Source: Prevotella fusca JCM 17724 | GTDB lineage: Bacteria; Bacteroidota; Bacteroidia; Bacteroidales; Bacteroidaceae | DNA length: 64,000 nt | Assembly (NCBI RefSeq): GCF_001262015.1 | Contig: NZ_CP012074.1 | Span: 1,215,001-1,279,000, forward strand | Direction: 5' to 3' | Part shown: positions 11,062 through 31,959 of the stretch, piece by piece | How positions within the stretch are numbered: the first letter of the stretch is position 1 | How the letters are laid out: each line of letters opens with the position of its first letter | The notes under the pieces: model-generated | What the model saw: the letters and a program-made list of their open reading frames with translations, nothing else | Told to the model about the DNA's origin: nothing | Databases searched by the model: none | Translations under genes and position numbers: made by a program

Positions 11062-12462
11062 TTACATGATATGCAACCAACGAAGAATATCGTTGAGGTT
11101 GGCAAATATCATGAGGAGAATCAGCAGGGTGATACCCACATACTCCGCACGAATCATGAACTTCTCAGATGGTTTACGACGGGTAATCATCTCATAAAGA
11201 AGAAAGACCACGTGTCCACCGTCCAATGCCGGAATAGGAAGAATGTTCATGAAGGCAAGGATGATGCTCAGGAAAGCTGTCATCGACCAGAACATATACC
11301 AGTCCCAGAAAGGAGGGAAAAGACTGCCGATAGCTCCAAAGCCACCAATGCTCTTGGCACCGTCAGCCGAAGCAAGGTAACGGAAGTTGCCGACGTAGCC
11401 ACGCAGTACGTTCCAACCGTGCTTGATACCAGCTGGAAAGCTCTCAAAGAATCCGTATTCCTCCTGTACTGGCTTATAGTATGTGGCAAGTGTTGACTGC
11501 ATAACGCCTAACTTCAAGTCGGGTGTCAGCACCATCTTCAGCGTATCAATCTTTGATTTTCCCTTATGCTGAACAGTCAGCACTATCGAACGGACAGCAA
11601 GAGAATCCTTATGAGTATTCTTCACTGACATAACATCACTCAAGACACCCGTCTGATAGTTCATATCCGTCCATGTCTCAACTGGCTTCCCGTTGATAGA
11701 CTTGATTATATCGCCTGCCTTGATACCAGCCTTGGCAGCAGGAGTACCACCCAGTACGCTGTCAACCTGTGCCGGAATGAAAGGCTCAACAAAGAAAGGA
11801 CGTGTCTTTATCATCGGCAGCATATCCATGTCACCGGGCAAAGATATACTGTGTTTCTTACCATTTCGCAGTACATCCACACGCTTTGCCTGTGCAATCT
11901 GACGGAAGAAATCGCCATTCACATTGGCATACTCACGGAAAGGTCCCTGGTCGGTACCAAGCATCACATCGTGGTCGTGGAAGCCCAAAGCCTTTGCATC
12001 AGCATTGAAACGCATACCCATGCTCATGTCAGACACCTTGAAATAGCTATCGCCCCATGTGAACATAATCATGGAATATATGAAGAGGGCAAGCACAAAG
12101 TTAACCAATACACCACCAATCATAATCAGCAGACGCTGCCATGCAGGCTTTGTACGGAATTCCCACGGCTCTGGTTCCTTCTTCATCTGCTCGGTATCGA
12201 AACTCTCGTCAATCATACCGGAAATCTTGCAATAGCCACCCAACGGCAGCCATCCCATACCATATTCAGTATCATCCTTCTTTGGTTTCCAACTGAAGAG
12301 TTTGCCCTTCCACTTACCGATACCCACATCGAAGAAGACGAAGAACTTCTCAACACGAACGCCGAAGAGCTTCGCAAAGAACATGTGTCCGCCTTCATGA
12401 AGCAGAACAAGCAAAGAGATTGCCAGAACAAACTGAAGCAACCTGATCAAAAATGTTTCCAT
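11062..12462 (-). CDS. rseP: RIP metalloprotease RseP (site-2 protease)
   Basis: 466 residues. An integral inner-membrane zinc protease that cleaves membrane-bound regulators within the bilayer, for example anti-sigma factors. The catalytic HEGGH motif is at residues 22-26 in the first helix, a PDZ domain follows in the middle (GGTPAAKAGIKAGDIIKSINGKPV), and the second metal-binding motif is PALDGGH near the C-terminus. The cytoplasmic/periplasmic insert around KKDDTEYGMGWLPLGGYCKISG is typical. It is the last gene of a minus-strand run, 14 bp after dxr. Its presence matters for the sigma/beta-barrel fusion protein in this window, which could be a substrate (inference only). Confidence 0.93.
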   Translation of the reverse strand: METFLIRLLQFVLAISLLVLLHEGGHMFFAKLFGVRVEKFFVFFDVGIGKWKGKLFSWKPKKDDTEYGMGWLPLGGYCKISGMIDESFDTEQMKKEPEPWEFRTKPAWQRLLIMIGGVLVNFVLALFIYSMIMFTWGDSYFKVSDMSMGMRFNADAKALGFHDHDVMLGTDQGPFREYANVNGDFFRQIAQAKRVDVLRNGKKHSISLPGDMDMLPMIKTRPFFVEPFIPAQVDSVLGGTPAAKAGIKAGDIIKSINGKPVETWTDMNYQTGVLSDVMSVKNTHKDSLAVRSIVLTVQHKGKSKIDTLKMVLTPDLKLGVMQSTLATYYKPVQEEYGFFESFPAGIKHGWNVLRGYVGNFRYLASADGAKSIGGFGAIGSLFPPFWDWYMFWSMTAFLSIILAFMNILPIPALDGGHVVFLLYEMITRRKPSEKFMIRAEYVGITLLILLMIFANLNDILRWLHIM

Positions 12463-26676: not shown

Positions 26677-27210
26677 TCAGCATTCTGGCAAACTCTTCCC
26701 CGAGTTGAATTTCACACTTGTCTTCTTGTTCTTCTCAATGCTAATCTGACCGTTATACATGACATACTCTTCCATACATTTCATGTCAGTTCCTGCATAA
26801 TAAACCTTCAGATGATAATTACCAGATGAAAGTTTACTCATCTTGAAGTCAACATCGTAATCACAGGTGCAATCTGCCCAAGAATCGATGTTCCCATTAT
26901 GATATATAATGAGTGTAATCTGATTGTCATGATTAGTTACATTTACGAAACGTTCACGTATAGCACAATTATCCTTAACATTCTCTATCTTACATTGGGC
27001 TGTCCCGTCTTTTCCCAATTCAATGCCAAGAGTTGCAGGTCTTGTGTCATACTCCTGATAGAAATCACTACGTGATTCCGTTTTCGATAAAGCAACTTTA
27101 CATGCGGAGTTTGTTAGATCATAGACTTTTAGTGCATCAAGAACTACATTTTCTGATGAGCATGCTGATAATCCAATAAGACATATCAGACAATACAATA
27201 CCTTTTTCAT
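26677..27210 (-). CDS. Lipoprotein of unknown function
   Basis: 177 residues. Signal peptide MKKVLYCLICLIGLSACSS with lipobox LSAC (Cys17). The mature part is a compact, Cys-containing beta-rich domain (CTCDYDVDFKMSKLSSGNYHLKVYYAGT). The SGNYHLKVY segment resembles strands of small immunoglobulin-like calycin folds, but I recognise no family. Single gene with its own terminator. Confidence 0.75.
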   Translation of the reverse strand: MKKVLYCLICLIGLSACSSENVVLDALKVYDLTNSACKVALSKTESRSDFYQEYDTRPATLGIELGKDGTAQCKIENVKDNCAIRERFVNVTNHDNQITLIIYHNGNIDSWADCTCDYDVDFKMSKLSSGNYHLKVYYAGTDMKCMEEYVMYNGQISIEKNKKTSVKFNSGKSLPEC

Positions 27211-27256
27211 AATTACAATGGATTAAGTATGTTAATATTAAATACGTAATTACTTA

Positions 27257-28321
27257 TTATTTATTGCTTTCATATACCGCAATTTCAGATATTAACGAAT
27301 AAACATCCTTGACGCTTTCCAATCCAAGAGAGGAGTCTTCCTTGCATCGTTTTTCAACCATATCAGCAAAGGTCTTAATTTCTGAGAAGAAACCTTGAGA
27401 GACTATTTGATTATTACCCACAGTCGGAGTAAAGCTGTTTCTCCCATAGAGATTGACAACGGTAACATTGCTATGGAAGACTTTTTCCAATGGTATACCA
27501 AATACAACAGAATGTCTTGGGGTGAAATCAAGCCTTTCCATTCTATCCAACTGATACAGCCCCTTATCTGTACTGATACTTAAAAGTTCTTGTGCTTCCT
27601 GCCAGGAATAGCCTGTTGAAAGTTCCATTACGCCTGTTATGTCCTTGTGTTCTAATATCAAAAACAAGGTCTGCCCACCATCCCCACAGCTGATAGTATC
27701 TGCCATTTTCACCTTTGCTTTGCCAAAAAGAAATATCACATAATCAAGCGGATGGATGAAAAGATCGAGCAAAGCATTACCTTCTGGGTATAGTCCTGTC
27801 AAATAACGATAATGATAATGTCTTTTACCTTCCCTTTTTAATCTGTTTTGCAGTATTCGGGTCACAGGTGCAAAGCGTCTTTGTAGTCCGACTACAATAT
27901 GTTTTGAACCATAAAGTTTGATGGTATCTATCAAGAGCCTAAGTTGCCTTTCATTCTCACAAGGTGGTTTTTCAACAAACAAAGACTTCTCTGCCTTGAT
28001 GACCTCACTTGCTATGTGAAAATGTGAATGTGCATTGGTGGCAACAAAGATTCCCGAAACCGTATCATCATGTAAAATGTCATGTAAGGATGTTGTGCTT
28101 TTGACTCCCTTATACTTTTGAGAAATCAGTCTGGCTTTCTTTTCAGAAGTACAGCAAATGTACTTTATTGGCAATTGAAGATACTGCATGACAGGCAGCA
28201 GATTATTGACACAATGGCTGCCAAAACCAACAAGGGCATACTGTTGCGTGTAGGTTTGATTCAATTCCTTCATACTACGCATACTCTTGTACCTGTTGAT
28301 GATATTATTTAAATATTCCAT
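27257..28321 (-). CDS. Gfo/Idh/MocA-family oxidoreductase
   Basis: 354 residues. N-terminal Rossmann domain (YALVGFGSHCVNNLLPVMQYL), the conserved VEKPPCEN (typically EKP) that contributes the catalytic Lys, and a C-terminal alpha/beta domain. NAD(P)-dependent oxidation or reduction of a sugar or cyclitol is the family role. The N-terminus carries an extra ~25 residues before the nucleotide-binding strand. It is 7 bp downstream of the radical SAM gene and so co-transcribed with it; the shared pathway is not obvious. Confidence 0.83.
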   Translation of the reverse strand: MEYLNNIINRYKSMRSMKELNQTYTQQYALVGFGSHCVNNLLPVMQYLQLPIKYICCTSEKKARLISQKYKGVKSTTSLHDILHDDTVSGIFVATNAHSHFHIASEVIKAEKSLFVEKPPCENERQLRLLIDTIKLYGSKHIVVGLQRRFAPVTRILQNRLKREGKRHYHYRYLTGLYPEGNALLDLFIHPLDYVIFLFGKAKVKMADTISCGDGGQTLFLILEHKDITGVMELSTGYSWQEAQELLSISTDKGLYQLDRMERLDFTPRHSVVFGIPLEKVFHSNVTVVNLYGRNSFTPTVGNNQIVSQGFFSEIKTFADMVEKRCKEDSSLGLESVKDVYSLISEIAVYESNK

Positions 28322-28328
28322 ATTCTAA

Positions 28329-29396
28329 TTATGCTGTTGTTTTTCTGAAGTGTCTTTTATAAGTGATATGTCTGTCATCTGTCCATTGATATTTCCCATA
28401 GAACAGTTCTATCAACCTTTTTGGCAGTATTCTTTCCAAATTTCTCAAGAGGATAATATCATACTTCCGATGATAATTTATCCAGCATTGATTACATTCT
28501 TTGGAGTATTGACACTGGACTTTACAACTTCTCCGTGAATTGAATATTTCATCAAGTGTATTTTCGTGGATGTTTCCTAAAACTATATCCAAGTTCTGGC
28601 ACAAGGGAACATCACCGTTTGAATGGATAACCAACTCACTGAAAATGCTATGGCATCGAAGTTTAAGTCTACTGTTCTTCCACTCATCATAAAGAGCAAC
28701 AAAGTCAAAGTTCTCATCCGTCTGATGTATGGAAGGTGGAATTTGACTGACAAAGTCTTTGTCGTTGGCTTCCATCAGTTCCTTTGTCGTGTCGAAAAAA
28801 GACATTGTGCTGTAGATTCCTATACGTATATCGACACCATATTTCTGTGCAACGCTTATCACATGTTCCATATCCTTAAACGAATTCCACGGAGAAAGGC
28901 AAAACATCAAGGATATGGGAACTGTGTCTTTACATGCCTCGATTACCTCAACGACCTTGTCATAGCCATCCCGTCCACGCATATAATGATAGGTATCCCT
29001 GTTTCCGTCAAGAGATATATACAGATGTTTAGGATGGTGTTTTTTAACAGCAGAGATAACTTTTCCTGTTGCAAGGCAATTAGACAGCAGTGTATAATTG
29101 GGATGATGTGTATCAAACCAACTCAATATCCTGTCTGCTTCGGGGTGAAGGATAAATTCTCCTCCTTCCAATCCGACCATTGTCCGTTTGGTTATACACT
29201 TGCTGTTCATTATACTGGCTATATCCTTTAAACTTAGATTCTCTATAGGTTTCTTCCAAATGGAACAGTGTTTGCAACGAGACTGGCAGTTTGTAGTAGA
29301 ATATATCATCAGAGAAGTGAGTTCCTTATGCTGCCTGCGTACCATATTGTTTACAAATACCATTCCATTATGGATGTAGTCATAAATACTGTACAT
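28329..29396 (-). CDS. Radical SAM/SPASM domain protein
   Basis: 355 residues. The CxxxCxxC cluster is at Cys37-Cys41-Cys44 (CQSRCKHC). A GGE-like motif (GLEGGEF) and the (beta/alpha)6 half-barrel follow. The C-terminal SPASM region has Cys residues in LRCHSIFSELVIHSNGDVPLCQN and CKVQCQYSKECNQCWI, giving places for auxiliary Fe-S clusters. SPASM enzymes modify peptides or carry out sugar/cofactor chemistry. No RiPP precursor peptide is visible in the 519 bp upstream, so a peptide substrate is not supported. Paired with the Gfo/Idh gene. Confidence 0.85.
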   Translation of the reverse strand: MYSIYDYIHNGMVFVNNMVRRQHKELTSLMIYSTTNCQSRCKHCSIWKKPIENLSLKDIASIMNSKCITKRTMVGLEGGEFILHPEADRILSWFDTHHPNYTLLSNCLATGKVISAVKKHHPKHLYISLDGNRDTYHYMRGRDGYDKVVEVIEACKDTVPISLMFCLSPWNSFKDMEHVISVAQKYGVDIRIGIYSTMSFFDTTKELMEANDKDFVSQIPPSIHQTDENFDFVALYDEWKNSRLKLRCHSIFSELVIHSNGDVPLCQNLDIVLGNIHENTLDEIFNSRRSCKVQCQYSKECNQCWINYHRKYDIILLRNLERILPKRLIELFYGKYQWTDDRHITYKRHFRKTTA

Positions 29397-29915
29397 TCTT
29401 TTGGGTTTAACTTTTTACTATTAAGAACCAAAAAATGTAAAAAGACTGCATGACGTTAATGATTTTTCCTTCTCGGTTAGTCCATCTTCAGATTTAGGAA
29501 AAGTACAGGCGTTACTTATATTCCATTAAACACCTTATTCTTATATATAGAGTTATACTTTCAGAAAGTTAGTCTATCTGTAAAAAGAGTTTCTACATAA
29601 ACAAAAGACATATCATAAACTCGTTTTTATCATCCATATATAGACTTGAAAGACTATGGACAGGAATACCATTTCGGATGAATACAAAAGTTTCTTCTTC
29701 CTTAATCTCTGAAAAAAGCTGTTTTGCAGTTTATTCTTATCAGGTAATCCAAGGAAAACAAATGCCCTATAAAACAATCCTATATGTCTCCTAAGAGAAA
29801 TTAGATTGTTTTACAGGACATTACCAAGCGTATACCCAGGGATATTGATTTCTGCATTTTAACGGAAACAACTCCCTTGACATTTCCGGATTATCAGCTT
29901 ACTATCAGTTATAAC
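29397..29915. other. Intergenic region between rSAM and sigma/beta-barrel genes
   Basis: AT-rich. Apart from the terminator at 29766-29817 I see no gene, repeat array or clear promoter. Minus-strand ATG-started frames here are 20 codons or fewer. Confidence 0.6.
29766..29817 (-). terminator. Terminator of the sigma/beta-barrel gene
   Basis: CCTATAAAACAATC (29766-29779) pairs with GATTGTTTTACAGG (29804-29817), 14-bp stem with one mismatch. Confidence 0.5.
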
Positions 29916-31613
29916 TTACCAGGTAAGACGCAATCCAAATGGGACTGTTATAATGAACGGATGTTCTGTACGATAAGTTTCAAGTCCGCTACCATTCCCA
30001 AAGTAATAGAACATATTTGGTTCTATATACAAGCTGAACGGTTTAAACACCTTATACTGAACACCAACACCTAAATTCACTGACCATTGTTGACGTGTCT
30101 TGATGTGTTCCCTTAACATAAACGACGAATCAGATGTAATAATATAATTCTTTTCAAGCGAGTTATGAACAGGCATTTCAAATGTAACTCCGCCTGTTGT
30201 ATATGCATTGAAACGTCCCTTACCCCATACACGATAGGTTAACCGTAATGGAACACCCACATAATCTATCTTTTGAGTCTTCTGCAGTTTTGTATTTCCA
30301 TGTTCGCTTTTAAATTCAGATTTCAACCTGGTATAGGTTATACCAGTTCCGAATGTCCAACGAGAATTCAACTGCTTGTTTATAGAAAGGCTGAATGTTC
30401 TTGGACGATCATGGTTCGCCACTTCTCTCAATGGACTGTTACCATCTGCCGAATGTTCACGGATCATCAAGGACATCCGTGCCCTTTCAACAGAATCCAT
30501 CAGACTGTTATTTCGTGCATAATATTCCTCTAAGTCTGACCATGTGTACAGCTTTGCAGTTGCCCCGCCATTGGCATAATCAATTACAGACAGATAGTTA
30601 AGATTTGGAATAGAACCATTTGCTTCAGCATTCGATGAATAACCGAAGTTAAAAGTCCATGGATACTTTTTCTTATGCCTTGTATTGAAATTACCATCTC
30701 CCCCTAGAACCATTAACTTACCTTGCGGAACTTGTGGAAGATCAAGCAAGCTGTCTTCAATGGTAAAACCTTTAGTCATACACTTATGTAATGAGTCCAC
30801 ATAGGATGGTACTGTTACCTTCTCAGGAACAATGCTATCTGTCCTGATTTGTGAAGTAAGTTTTTCCTCAGAAACAGTTGGAAAAGTTGGAACACTGCCA
30901 TAATAACCTTTGCTGTTTAAGGGCTCAGAATACTTAGACTTTCCTTTCCTTGCTTTCTCTGCTTTACACTGAACACGTTTTGTCTGTCTCTTCTGGCTCG
31001 TCAAGGCTGTCGATTTGTTATTGGAAGTCCCAATATTCCTATCTCTTGTCGCAAAATAAATATATACTGGTATCAAGACAGGTAACAAGAACAGTGCCCA
31101 ATAGTTGGCAAGTAGTTCACGTAGCATCTTCTTTGCTCGGGACAGCTGGGAAGAAGAACTGTGGGCATTAATCCCAAGCATTGCTCCTATTTCCTTGTGG
31201 GACAGACCGTCCAGCACTGAGAGCTTAAACACTTCCCGGTATCCCTCAGGTAATGATTCTAATGCTGACAACAACATCTGCAGCTCTACGCTCTTCTTGT
31301 CTTCACCCTCTATATCGGCAGGTTCTATTGTCAAATAGGACAATGGAATATCTGCTTTCCCTGCACTTTGCAGATACCTCAAAGTAAGGTTTCTTACTAT
31401 TGTTATCATCCACCCCTCCACTTTCGAGTTGTCTTTCAGCGTTTTTATGGAGGTGAAAATGATGATAAAAGCGTCATGCAGAATATCTTCTGCAATACTT
31501 TCATCTGCTACATAGTGCCGGCATATCTTCATCAACCTGTTGGAATATGCCTTATATAATTCTCCGAGAGCATCCTGTTCTCCCTGCTTGCATGCGTCTA
31601 TATCTATGTTCAT
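29916..31613 (-). CDS. Transmembrane ECF sigma factor fused to an outer-membrane beta-barrel
   Basis: 565 residues in one uninterrupted frame. Residues ~10-85: sigma region 2 (LGELYKAYSNRLMKICRHYV, EDILHDAFIIIF, VEGWMITIVRNL). Residues ~110-168: region 4 with helix-turn-helix (LPEGYREVFKLSVLDGLSHKEIGAMLGI). Residues ~171-188: one transmembrane helix (YWALFLLPVLIPVYIYFA). Residues ~190-315: low-complexity Lys/Ser/Pro-rich linker. Residues ~318-565: alternating beta-strand repeat ending in FGLRLTW, an outer-membrane barrel terminus. Normally sigma, membrane anti-sigma and barrel are separate proteins. The start MNIDIDACKQGEQ at 31613 is preferred; a 26-residue longer start (31691) lacks sigma homology. 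The domains suggest a sigma factor held at the membrane and controlled from the outer membrane (inference). Confidence 0.85.
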   Translation of the reverse strand: MNIDIDACKQGEQDALGELYKAYSNRLMKICRHYVADESIAEDILHDAFIIIFTSIKTLKDNSKVEGWMITIVRNLTLRYLQSAGKADIPLSYLTIEPADIEGEDKKSVELQMLLSALESLPEGYREVFKLSVLDGLSHKEIGAMLGINAHSSSSQLSRAKKMLRELLANYWALFLLPVLIPVYIYFATRDRNIGTSNNKSTALTSQKRQTKRVQCKAEKARKGKSKYSEPLNSKGYYGSVPTFPTVSEEKLTSQIRTDSIVPEKVTVPSYVDSLHKCMTKGFTIEDSLLDLPQVPQGKLMVLGGDGNFNTRHKKKYPWTFNFGYSSNAEANGSIPNLNYLSVIDYANGGATAKLYTWSDLEEYYARNNSLMDSVERARMSLMIREHSADGNSPLREVANHDRPRTFSLSINKQLNSRWTFGTGITYTRLKSEFKSEHGNTKLQKTQKIDYVGVPLRLTYRVWGKGRFNAYTTGGVTFEMPVHNSLEKNYIITSDSSFMLREHIKTRQQWSVNLGVGVQYKVFKPFSLYIEPNMFYYFGNGSGLETYRTEHPFIITVPFGLRLTW

Positions 31614-31959
31614 GGATATATTTTTCCTTTTTATTAAAAGGAGCAGACTATGCTTGAAATACTGCATGAGGGTGGGAGTTTTTTTAAACAAAGAAAGAAA
31701 AAAATAATTAAGACACTTGTTTTAATGAAAAAACACCATCAACATATGAATTATAGTGCTTCTACGTTTGCCGCTTCGACTATCTTTCATATAGTAACGG
31801 TAACATATCTTCTTTCTTACTACAGGCTCTCATATTGTTTAACATGATATGGTAAACATCACAACATAGAAGAAGTGATGTTTTGGAAAGTATGACCTTT
31901 TGAAAGTTCTCTACATTAACATATAAATATTACTCCTGCTTTCTCCTTGTTGAGGTGAC
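31614..31959. other. Intergenic region upstream of the sigma/beta-barrel gene
   Basis: AT-rich, 346 bp. It should contain the promoter of the sigma/barrel gene, but no convincing TAnnTTTG element is visible on the minus strand, so the gene may use another sigma factor, perhaps its own product. No repeat array. Confidence 0.4.

Follow-up and report, generated by a model that had tools for sequence, protein, structure and literature searches.

How the state of the outer membrane is communicated to RNA polymerase in the Bacteroidota is largely an open question. A gene of Prevotella fusca JCM 17724 poses it within a single polypeptide, in which an ECF sigma factor appears to be joined to an outer-membrane β-barrel. 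The gene lies on contig NZ_CP012074.1, in the stretch of 64,000 nucleotides (positions 1,215,001 to 1,279,000) that was analyzed here and is called the window; coordinates are counted from its first nucleotide. The initial annotation of the window proposed that one uninterrupted frame encodes sigma regions 2 and 4, a transmembrane (TM) helix, a linker, and a barrel ending in LTW, so that sensor and sigma factor would form a single chain with a tether of periplasmic length. Is such a fusion genuine, and how might a sigma factor anchored in this way be silenced and set to work?

Domain Layout and Predicted Structure

29916..31613, minus strand: one-chain protein of 565 aa, sigma – TM helix – tether – outer-membrane barrel (ATG at 31613, stop at 29916–29918)
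31356..31613, minus strand: ECF sigma region 2, aa 1–86 (Pfam)
31098..31283, minus strand: ECF sigma region 4, aa 111–172 (Pfam PF08281 and alignments; family motif HSSSSQL.RAK)
31041..31097, minus strand: TM helix, aa 173–191, unbroken from the last helix of region 4 and bearing a frequent proline
30666..31040, minus strand: disordered periplasmic tether, about aa 192–316 (from predicted-structure confidence)
29919..30665, minus strand: predicted C-terminal outer-membrane barrel, aa 317–565 (PF13568, OMP_b-brl_2; terminal LTW)

The reading frame from 31613 to 29916 on the minus strand is intact over 565 residues, and Pfam recognizes sigma regions 2 and 4 and OMP_b-brl_2 in its product. The AlphaFold2 model of the chain, based on an 83-row alignment, has a confident region 2; the final helix of region 4 is continuous with the membrane helix (150–191), residues 193–313 (about 121 residues) have pLDDT values near 30 and are disordered, and residues 319–563 form strands, into which a helical segment (358–386) is inserted. 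Eight membrane strands can be counted by eye in this barrel. Solved structures that align with the model are E. coli sigmaE and SigW for the N-terminal part and barrels of the OprF, OmpA, and OmpW type for the C-terminal part. Frame, Pfam, and model thus agree with the parts described in the initial annotation, the linker being disordered and the barrel OmpA-like; its proposal that sensor and sigma factor share one chain is supported by sequence, homologues, and model alike.

Residues 173–191 are hydrophobic, with flanking charges of the predicted N-in type. The mean net charge of fused proteins is +4.5 before the TM helix and +0.75 after it, which points to an N-in topology, and the barrel is placed by prediction in the outer membrane.

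Occurrence of the Fused Protein

A protein search returned 2681 relatives at E ≤ 0.001, and the best 120 of them are all whole-chain matches with at least 65% identity. In a species-level genome scan, which yielded 464 confirmed loci, the best 80 of the 464 match over nearly the full chain; their record titles include Prevotella, Hoylesella, Hallella, Segatella, Parabacteroides faecis, Muribaculaceae, and one Alloprevotella (the broken locus L153). Single frames are found in 77 of these 80. The three broken members have a stop at the sigma/TM border (L153), a frameshift in the TM region (L163), and a stop in the tether (L171), and the frame is also interrupted in L053, L054, and L055. Where the relatives carry source names, these are sigma-factor names alone, and the membrane half is therefore easily overlooked.

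Both parts occur in one frame in 33 of 151 sampled genomes of the window's family (a contig end truncates one of the 33), and four more of the 151 have a broken or cut copy. Among 295 sampled genomes of the order, at least one further genome has the fusion, in two copies (G369); among 395 sampled genomes of the phylum, the matches listed include no fusion outside the order. In the genus of G149, 3 of the 80 genomes have a fused-type match, that of G002 being broken; in the genus of G140, 10 of 60 genomes have one. Fused members in these two genera have the HSSSSQL motif and the direct sigma–TM junction described below. An origin from phage or plasmid was considered and rejected, since coverage of 80% of the chain at one place is reached in 0 of 26 phage records and 0 of 553 plasmid records with matches.

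It might be supposed that two genes have been fused artificially by assembly or annotation, given that split relatives exist and that one split pair occurs in the same genome. But the fusion is present in independent genomes, its members form a single clade, and a stretch found in the split relatives, that of the anti-sigma domain, is missing at the junction; the homologues, with their 77 single frames, rule out an assembly artefact, and we give this explanation next to no probability. Another reading holds that one frame gives two products, a free sigma factor and a separate barrel, through processing during synthesis, internal starts, or premature stops. The breaks at or near the sigma/TM border in two of the 80 homologues (L153 and L163), which leave the sigma part intact, are in line with this reading, as are the stop in the tether of L171 and the interrupted frames of L053, L054, and L055; the intact state of the other 77 frames makes it improbable.

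Two of the three broken homologues (L153 and L163) would retain a nearly free sigma part, although intact copies are the rule. At L053:2922–4414 a fused-type gene is split into a sigma–TM frame and a barrel frame that overlap by 4 nt.

Origin of the Fusion and Its Split Relatives

Trees were built from 110 fused and 50 two-frame rows by a short search with SH-aLRT support only; duplicate loci, the broken L153, L163, and L171, and L074, which has two sigma genes, were left out. The 110 fused rows and two broken fused-type rows (L053 and L055) lie on one side of a branch and the 48 split rows on the other. This division appears, each time with support of 100, in the sigma tree, in which five other ECF factors served as outgroup, and in the barrel tree. 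Homologues are thus not always split between the sigma and barrel parts, an outcome that the initial annotation had said would count against it: they are fused within one well-supported clade, in which breaks are few. In the sigma tree the fused sigma parts nest among the Das sigmas, those encoded beside Dma-like partners. The simplest reading of these trees would be a single fusion event.

The genome of the window also contains a two-gene relative, on contig 2 (L009:5972–8518), where a gene for a 185-aa sigma factor is followed after 4 nt by one for a 422-aa protein, which comprises a short cytoplasmic segment, a TM helix, a linker, and a barrel. Identity to the corresponding halves of the fused chain is 33% for the sigma factor and 29% for the barrel protein, and a NigD1/NigD2-family lipoprotein gene lies in front of this sigma/anti-sigma pair. 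The pair is of the Das/Dma arrangement, as described in the accessible portion of PMC13088901.

In four plasmid records from Bacteroidales (OY726030, which is unannotated, NZ_OY725762, NZ_OY725958, and NZ_OY725915), sigma and barrel matches adjoin one another in two pieces and are apparently split pairs. The split system may therefore travel.

The Junction between Sigma Factor and Membrane

In every one of 120 fused ORF entries, a set that includes duplicate loci, no more than four residues separate the start of the TM helix from the end of the sigma profile; the search for the helix was begun five residues ahead of the profile end. All 49 distinct split partners have 44–91 residues ahead of the TM helix, and it is in this stretch that the anti-sigma domain of Dma proteins is located, according to the available text of PMC13088901. 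An anti-sigma remnant between sigma factor and TM helix was sought in the fused proteins and found in none of the 120 entries. With the anti-sigma stretch lost, simple read-through from one gene into the next does not account for the fusion. As judged from sequence, the fused form is without a cytoplasmic anti-sigma domain and, with its direct sigma–TM junction in place of the 44–91 residues of the split partners, is not a canonical (Dma1/2) member.

The helix itself also differs. Proline is present in it in 85 of 96 distinct fused proteins and 1 of 49 split partners, a contrast that represents one trait of one clade and not many independent events. One column of the TM alignment is proline in 97 of 114 rows, and the best 19-mer includes a proline in 119 of 119, 107 of 112, and 8 of 12 members of three listed sets of relatives. 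The residue is missing from 11 of the 96 fused helices; six of ten helices lack it among L290, L292, L295–L298, L300, L301, L203, and L058, and these (L058, L296–L298, L300, and L301) constitute a proline-free lineage of fused proteins.

Beyond the membrane, the distance from TM helix to barrel profile is 126–221 residues (median 198.5; 120 ORF entries), so that the length of the tether is fairly constant while its sequence varies. Conservation, in bits per column, is 1.48 for the tether, 2.66 for the core barrel, and 3.31 for region 4.

These features bear on two further readings. In the first, the sigma factor works while anchored, as a one-component regulator of the ToxR type: RNA polymerase would bind at the membrane, and the barrel would act by tension or conformation, with no cleavage. 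The lack of an inhibitory anti-sigma domain favors this idea, as do the retention of tether length but not sequence, as for a mechanical spacer, and the loss of the proline in one lineage. On the other hand, the proline that most members keep would have no clear use, and IutY, the only experimentally characterized membrane-fused ECF factor named in the accessible part of a review, is freed by proteolysis (PMC8999054). We regard an active anchored sigma factor as rather unlikely. In the second reading, the barrel no longer senses anything and the protein is mainly a structural membrane linker with a relic sigma part. A disordered tether and one TM helix would indeed physically join both membranes, but region 4 is the best conserved part of the chain and, as described below, a promoter element is kept upstream in 107 of 113 loci; a structural role of this kind seems very improbable.

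The Adjacent Modification Cassette

28329..29396, minus strand: radical SAM/SPASM protein, 355 aa (PF04055, PF13186)
27257..28321, minus strand: Gfo/Idh/MocA-type oxidoreductase, 354 aa (PF01408)
26677..27210, minus strand: small cysteine-containing lipoprotein-like protein, 177 aa (no Pfam match)

These three genes, from 29396 to 26677, lie directly downstream of the fused gene on the same strand. Among 109 distinct fused loci a radical SAM gene is found in 65, a class-I methyltransferase gene in 22, both in none, and neither in 22; at least 600 nt of downstream DNA was required for this count and identical downstream DNA was dropped, and some of the loci with neither gene have little DNA downstream. 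By contrast, relatives of the cassette genes (radical SAM, oxidoreductase, and methyltransferase) are found in 0 of 57 Das/Dma split loci, 600 nt or more of downstream DNA being available for 44 of these; the 57 are what remains of 66 after removal of 9 duplicates or broken fused-type loci. A radical SAM gene (E ≤ 1e-60) occurs in 23 of the 151 family genomes, and 19 of the 23 also have the fusion, a co-occurrence with a Fisher p of about 7e-12 when kinship is ignored and the 33 fusion genomes are typed by hand. Conversely, 14 of the 33 fusion genomes are without the radical SAM gene, and 4 of the 23 radical SAM genomes are without the fusion.

The content of the cassette varies among lineages. 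Eight loci from the genera of G149 and G140 could be read as single frames, and in seven of them the next gene encodes a methyltransferase and in one (L295) a radical SAM protein; fused loci of these genera thus stand mostly beside a methyltransferase, whereas the fusion in the window stands beside a radical SAM gene. Two genomes from the genus of the window instead have lipoprotein and methyltransferase genes after the fusion, the methyltransferase being assigned by Pfam. One clade has a different small lipoprotein-like gene between the sigma and radical SAM genes, often with a TGCAGT element of its own.

Two further readings of the cassette were tried and rejected. The lipoprotein is not a universal partner, its relatives being present in only 29 locus records, duplicates included. 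The radical SAM protein does not belong to a TIGR04133-type rSAM/lipoprotein system, for which it scores 28.9 against a cut-off of 425. The search of NCBIfam with the 177-aa lipoprotein gave one weak, unrelated match (14.5 bits against a cut-off of 100).

A Conserved Promoter Element

31640..31666, minus strand: own promoter-like element, TGCAGTATTT-N12-GCTCC (upstream conservation)
29418..29450, minus strand: second promoter-like element, before the radical SAM gene, with TGCAGTCTTT at 29450–29441

The hexamer TGCAGT occurs within 200 nt upstream of the fused gene in 107 of 113 loci; the Markov expectation is 4.9, and the largest count in 200 simulations was 13. The upstream element reads TGCAGTCTTT or TGCAGTATTT in 100 of the 113. 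In 71 of the 107 loci TGCAGT is located 52–53 nt ahead of the start codon, with an A-tract upstream. Split relatives have it in 22 of 62 upstream regions.

The same element precedes the cassette. In the window TGCAGTCTTT lies about 55 nt before the radical SAM start. Across the fused loci, 59 of the 65 radical SAM genes and 16 of the 22 methyltransferase genes have the element in the 110 nt that precede them, as compared with 90 of 2120 stretches of equal length drawn at random from that downstream DNA. The −10 region varies between subclades. In 47 of 59 loci the −10 type of the gene's own promoter matches that of the cassette promoter, as compared with a mean of 24.4 and at most 36 in 2000 shufflings, an agreement inflated by relatedness and based on classes from a crude pattern that misfiles some rows; 12 of 71 loci, which gave no promoter pair, were left out of this comparison. 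The promoter pair of the window itself falls into different −10 classes. By sequence comparison, then, promoter elements are conserved before both the fused gene and its neighbors, and the genes at 26677–29396 look like the regulon of the fused sigma factor.

An inverted repeat, CCTTTT...AAAAGG, lies at 31626–31641 in the window, where it overlaps the last part of the −10 element; it recurs in many of the upstream regions from the clade to which the window belongs.

A Model for Silencing and Release

11062..12462, minus strand: RseP-like site-2 protease, candidate releasing protease only (PF02163, Peptidase_M50, E 3.1e-47, with PDZ)

We consider it probable, though by no means assured, that the protein is an auto-regulated trans-envelope sigma factor of the Dma3 type that is freed by proteolysis and drives the adjacent modification cassette. 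The sigma part would lie in the cytoplasm, tied by the end of region 4 to one inner-membrane helix; the disordered tether would span the periplasm, and the C-terminal barrel would sit in the outer membrane. With the barrel assembled and undisturbed, the sigma factor would be kept at the membrane and off its promoters, the tether taking over the job of the missing anti-sigma domain. Outer-membrane stress or failed assembly of the barrel could open the chain to a periplasmic protease, and intramembrane cleavage, for which RseP is the obvious candidate, would then free the sigma part. The freed sigma factor would presumably read TGCAGTCTTT-type promoters: its own, re-arming the sensor, and that of the cassette, turning on the radical SAM, oxidoreductase, and lipoprotein genes or, in other lineages, the methyltransferase gene.

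Release through cleavage by RseP is suggested by two pointers to regulated intramembrane proteolysis, a proline in the TM helix and the existence of an rseP gene. The proline is compatible with such cleavage but proves nothing, and the nearness of RseP within the window means nothing, because rseP is a general housekeeping gene. Analogy adds to the case. According to the portion of PMC9308784 that was accessible, a two-gene system of Phocaeicola vulgatus, described as having this envelope-spanning anti-sigma architecture, is switched on by a toxin that attacks the envelope, and bacteroidetocin A, a BamA inhibitor, also elicits the response; IutY, a sigma factor fused to a membrane regulator, is freed by Prc and RseP, as stated in the available text of PMC8999054. 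On these grounds release by regulated cleavage, with trouble at the outer membrane as the trigger, would be favored, and the lineage without a helix proline slightly lowers our confidence in the model.

It is tempting to extend the model to a one-molecule switch that dispenses with an inhibitory domain, outer-membrane anchoring alone silencing the sigma factor. Each molecule would report a single time on the assembly of its barrel or on the integrity of the outer membrane. The sigma factor set free would both rebuild the sensor and make SAM-dependent enzymes, of the radical SAM or the methyltransferase kind (never both at any of the loci seen), that modify an outer-membrane lipoprotein or glycan and so close the loop. 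This extension is tentative, and we hold it to be possible but doubtful.

Comparison with Known Systems

The initial annotation suggested, without naming an example, that similar architectures occur in the Bacteroidota, and this is correct. Dma3 of Bacteroides thetaiotaomicron, at bt_2778-2779, is described as a Dma member that has no adjacent cognate sigma factor and carries a sigma domain at its own N terminus (PMC13088901, accessible portion). The domain order, to judge by this description, is that of the window protein. The sigma–barrel architecture is thus already in print, in one sentence on Dma3 in the text available. The Das/Dma pairs (Dma1, Dma2, and M0N98_03760-61 of P. vulgatus) share the TM helix, disordered tether, and C-terminal barrel but are encoded by two genes, retain the cytoplasmic stretch before the membrane that the fusion lacks, and have a TM helix without proline in 48 of 49 split partners, whereas the fused helix usually has one.

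IutY of Pseudomonas putida resembles the window protein in that the C terminus of an ECF sigma factor is fused to a membrane-bound regulator (PMC8999054), but it keeps an anti-sigma part and serves iron cell-surface signaling. No FecR-type domain was matched by Pfam in the 565-aa chain at E ≤ 1. The receptor of IutY is a separate TonB-dependent protein. Factors of groups ECF48, ECF52, and ECF53 of Actinobacteria are likewise sigma–TM fusions with an extension past the membrane, but they belong to an unrelated lineage and have a zinc-type anti-sigma domain, and the portion of PMC8999054 consulted mentions no outer-membrane barrel in them.

The literature search found nothing on the fused family beyond Dma3, or on its regulon, and the original work on Dma proteins and ECF classification may say more. 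As far as this search extended, the breadth of the family and its single clade, the loss of the anti-sigma domain, the helix proline, the promoter element, and the modification cassettes are apparently unpublished. One odd Bacteroides protein thereby becomes a family in genomes of Prevotella, Segatella, Hoylesella, Hallella, Parabacteroides, and Muribaculaceae, and the promoter sequence and adjacent target cassette make the fused system directly testable.

Related Sites and Genes Elsewhere

The genome of the window contains 56 TGCAGTMTTY sites as against 18 for the reversed control. Five of the 56 are in the window, two of these being the promoters of the fused and radical SAM genes, and outside it, apart from a repeated pair described below, 40 of 49 sites fall in reading frames of at least 100 aa. 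With a spacing of 12–13 nt before RCTCC, the search of this genome retrieved the fused gene's own promoter and no other match. A looser pattern gave four matches: the same promoter, one site with a spacing of 8, and a repeated pair with ACTCC at a spacing of 11, which is situated in coding DNA.

A second radical SAM and Gfo/Idh pair, 69% and 46% identical to that of the window, is present on contig 2 of the same genome (L279:1636–5028) without a sigma fusion, and the gene order at L280 is the same. The gene that follows the L279 pair is presumably one for an S-adenosylmethionine synthetase. The repeated pair is an identical 26-nt promoter-like match that occurs twice on contig 2, 4.5 kb apart (L224 and L225), in repeats of coding DNA that hold a number of small, related genes and may represent a polymorphic effector/immunity array.
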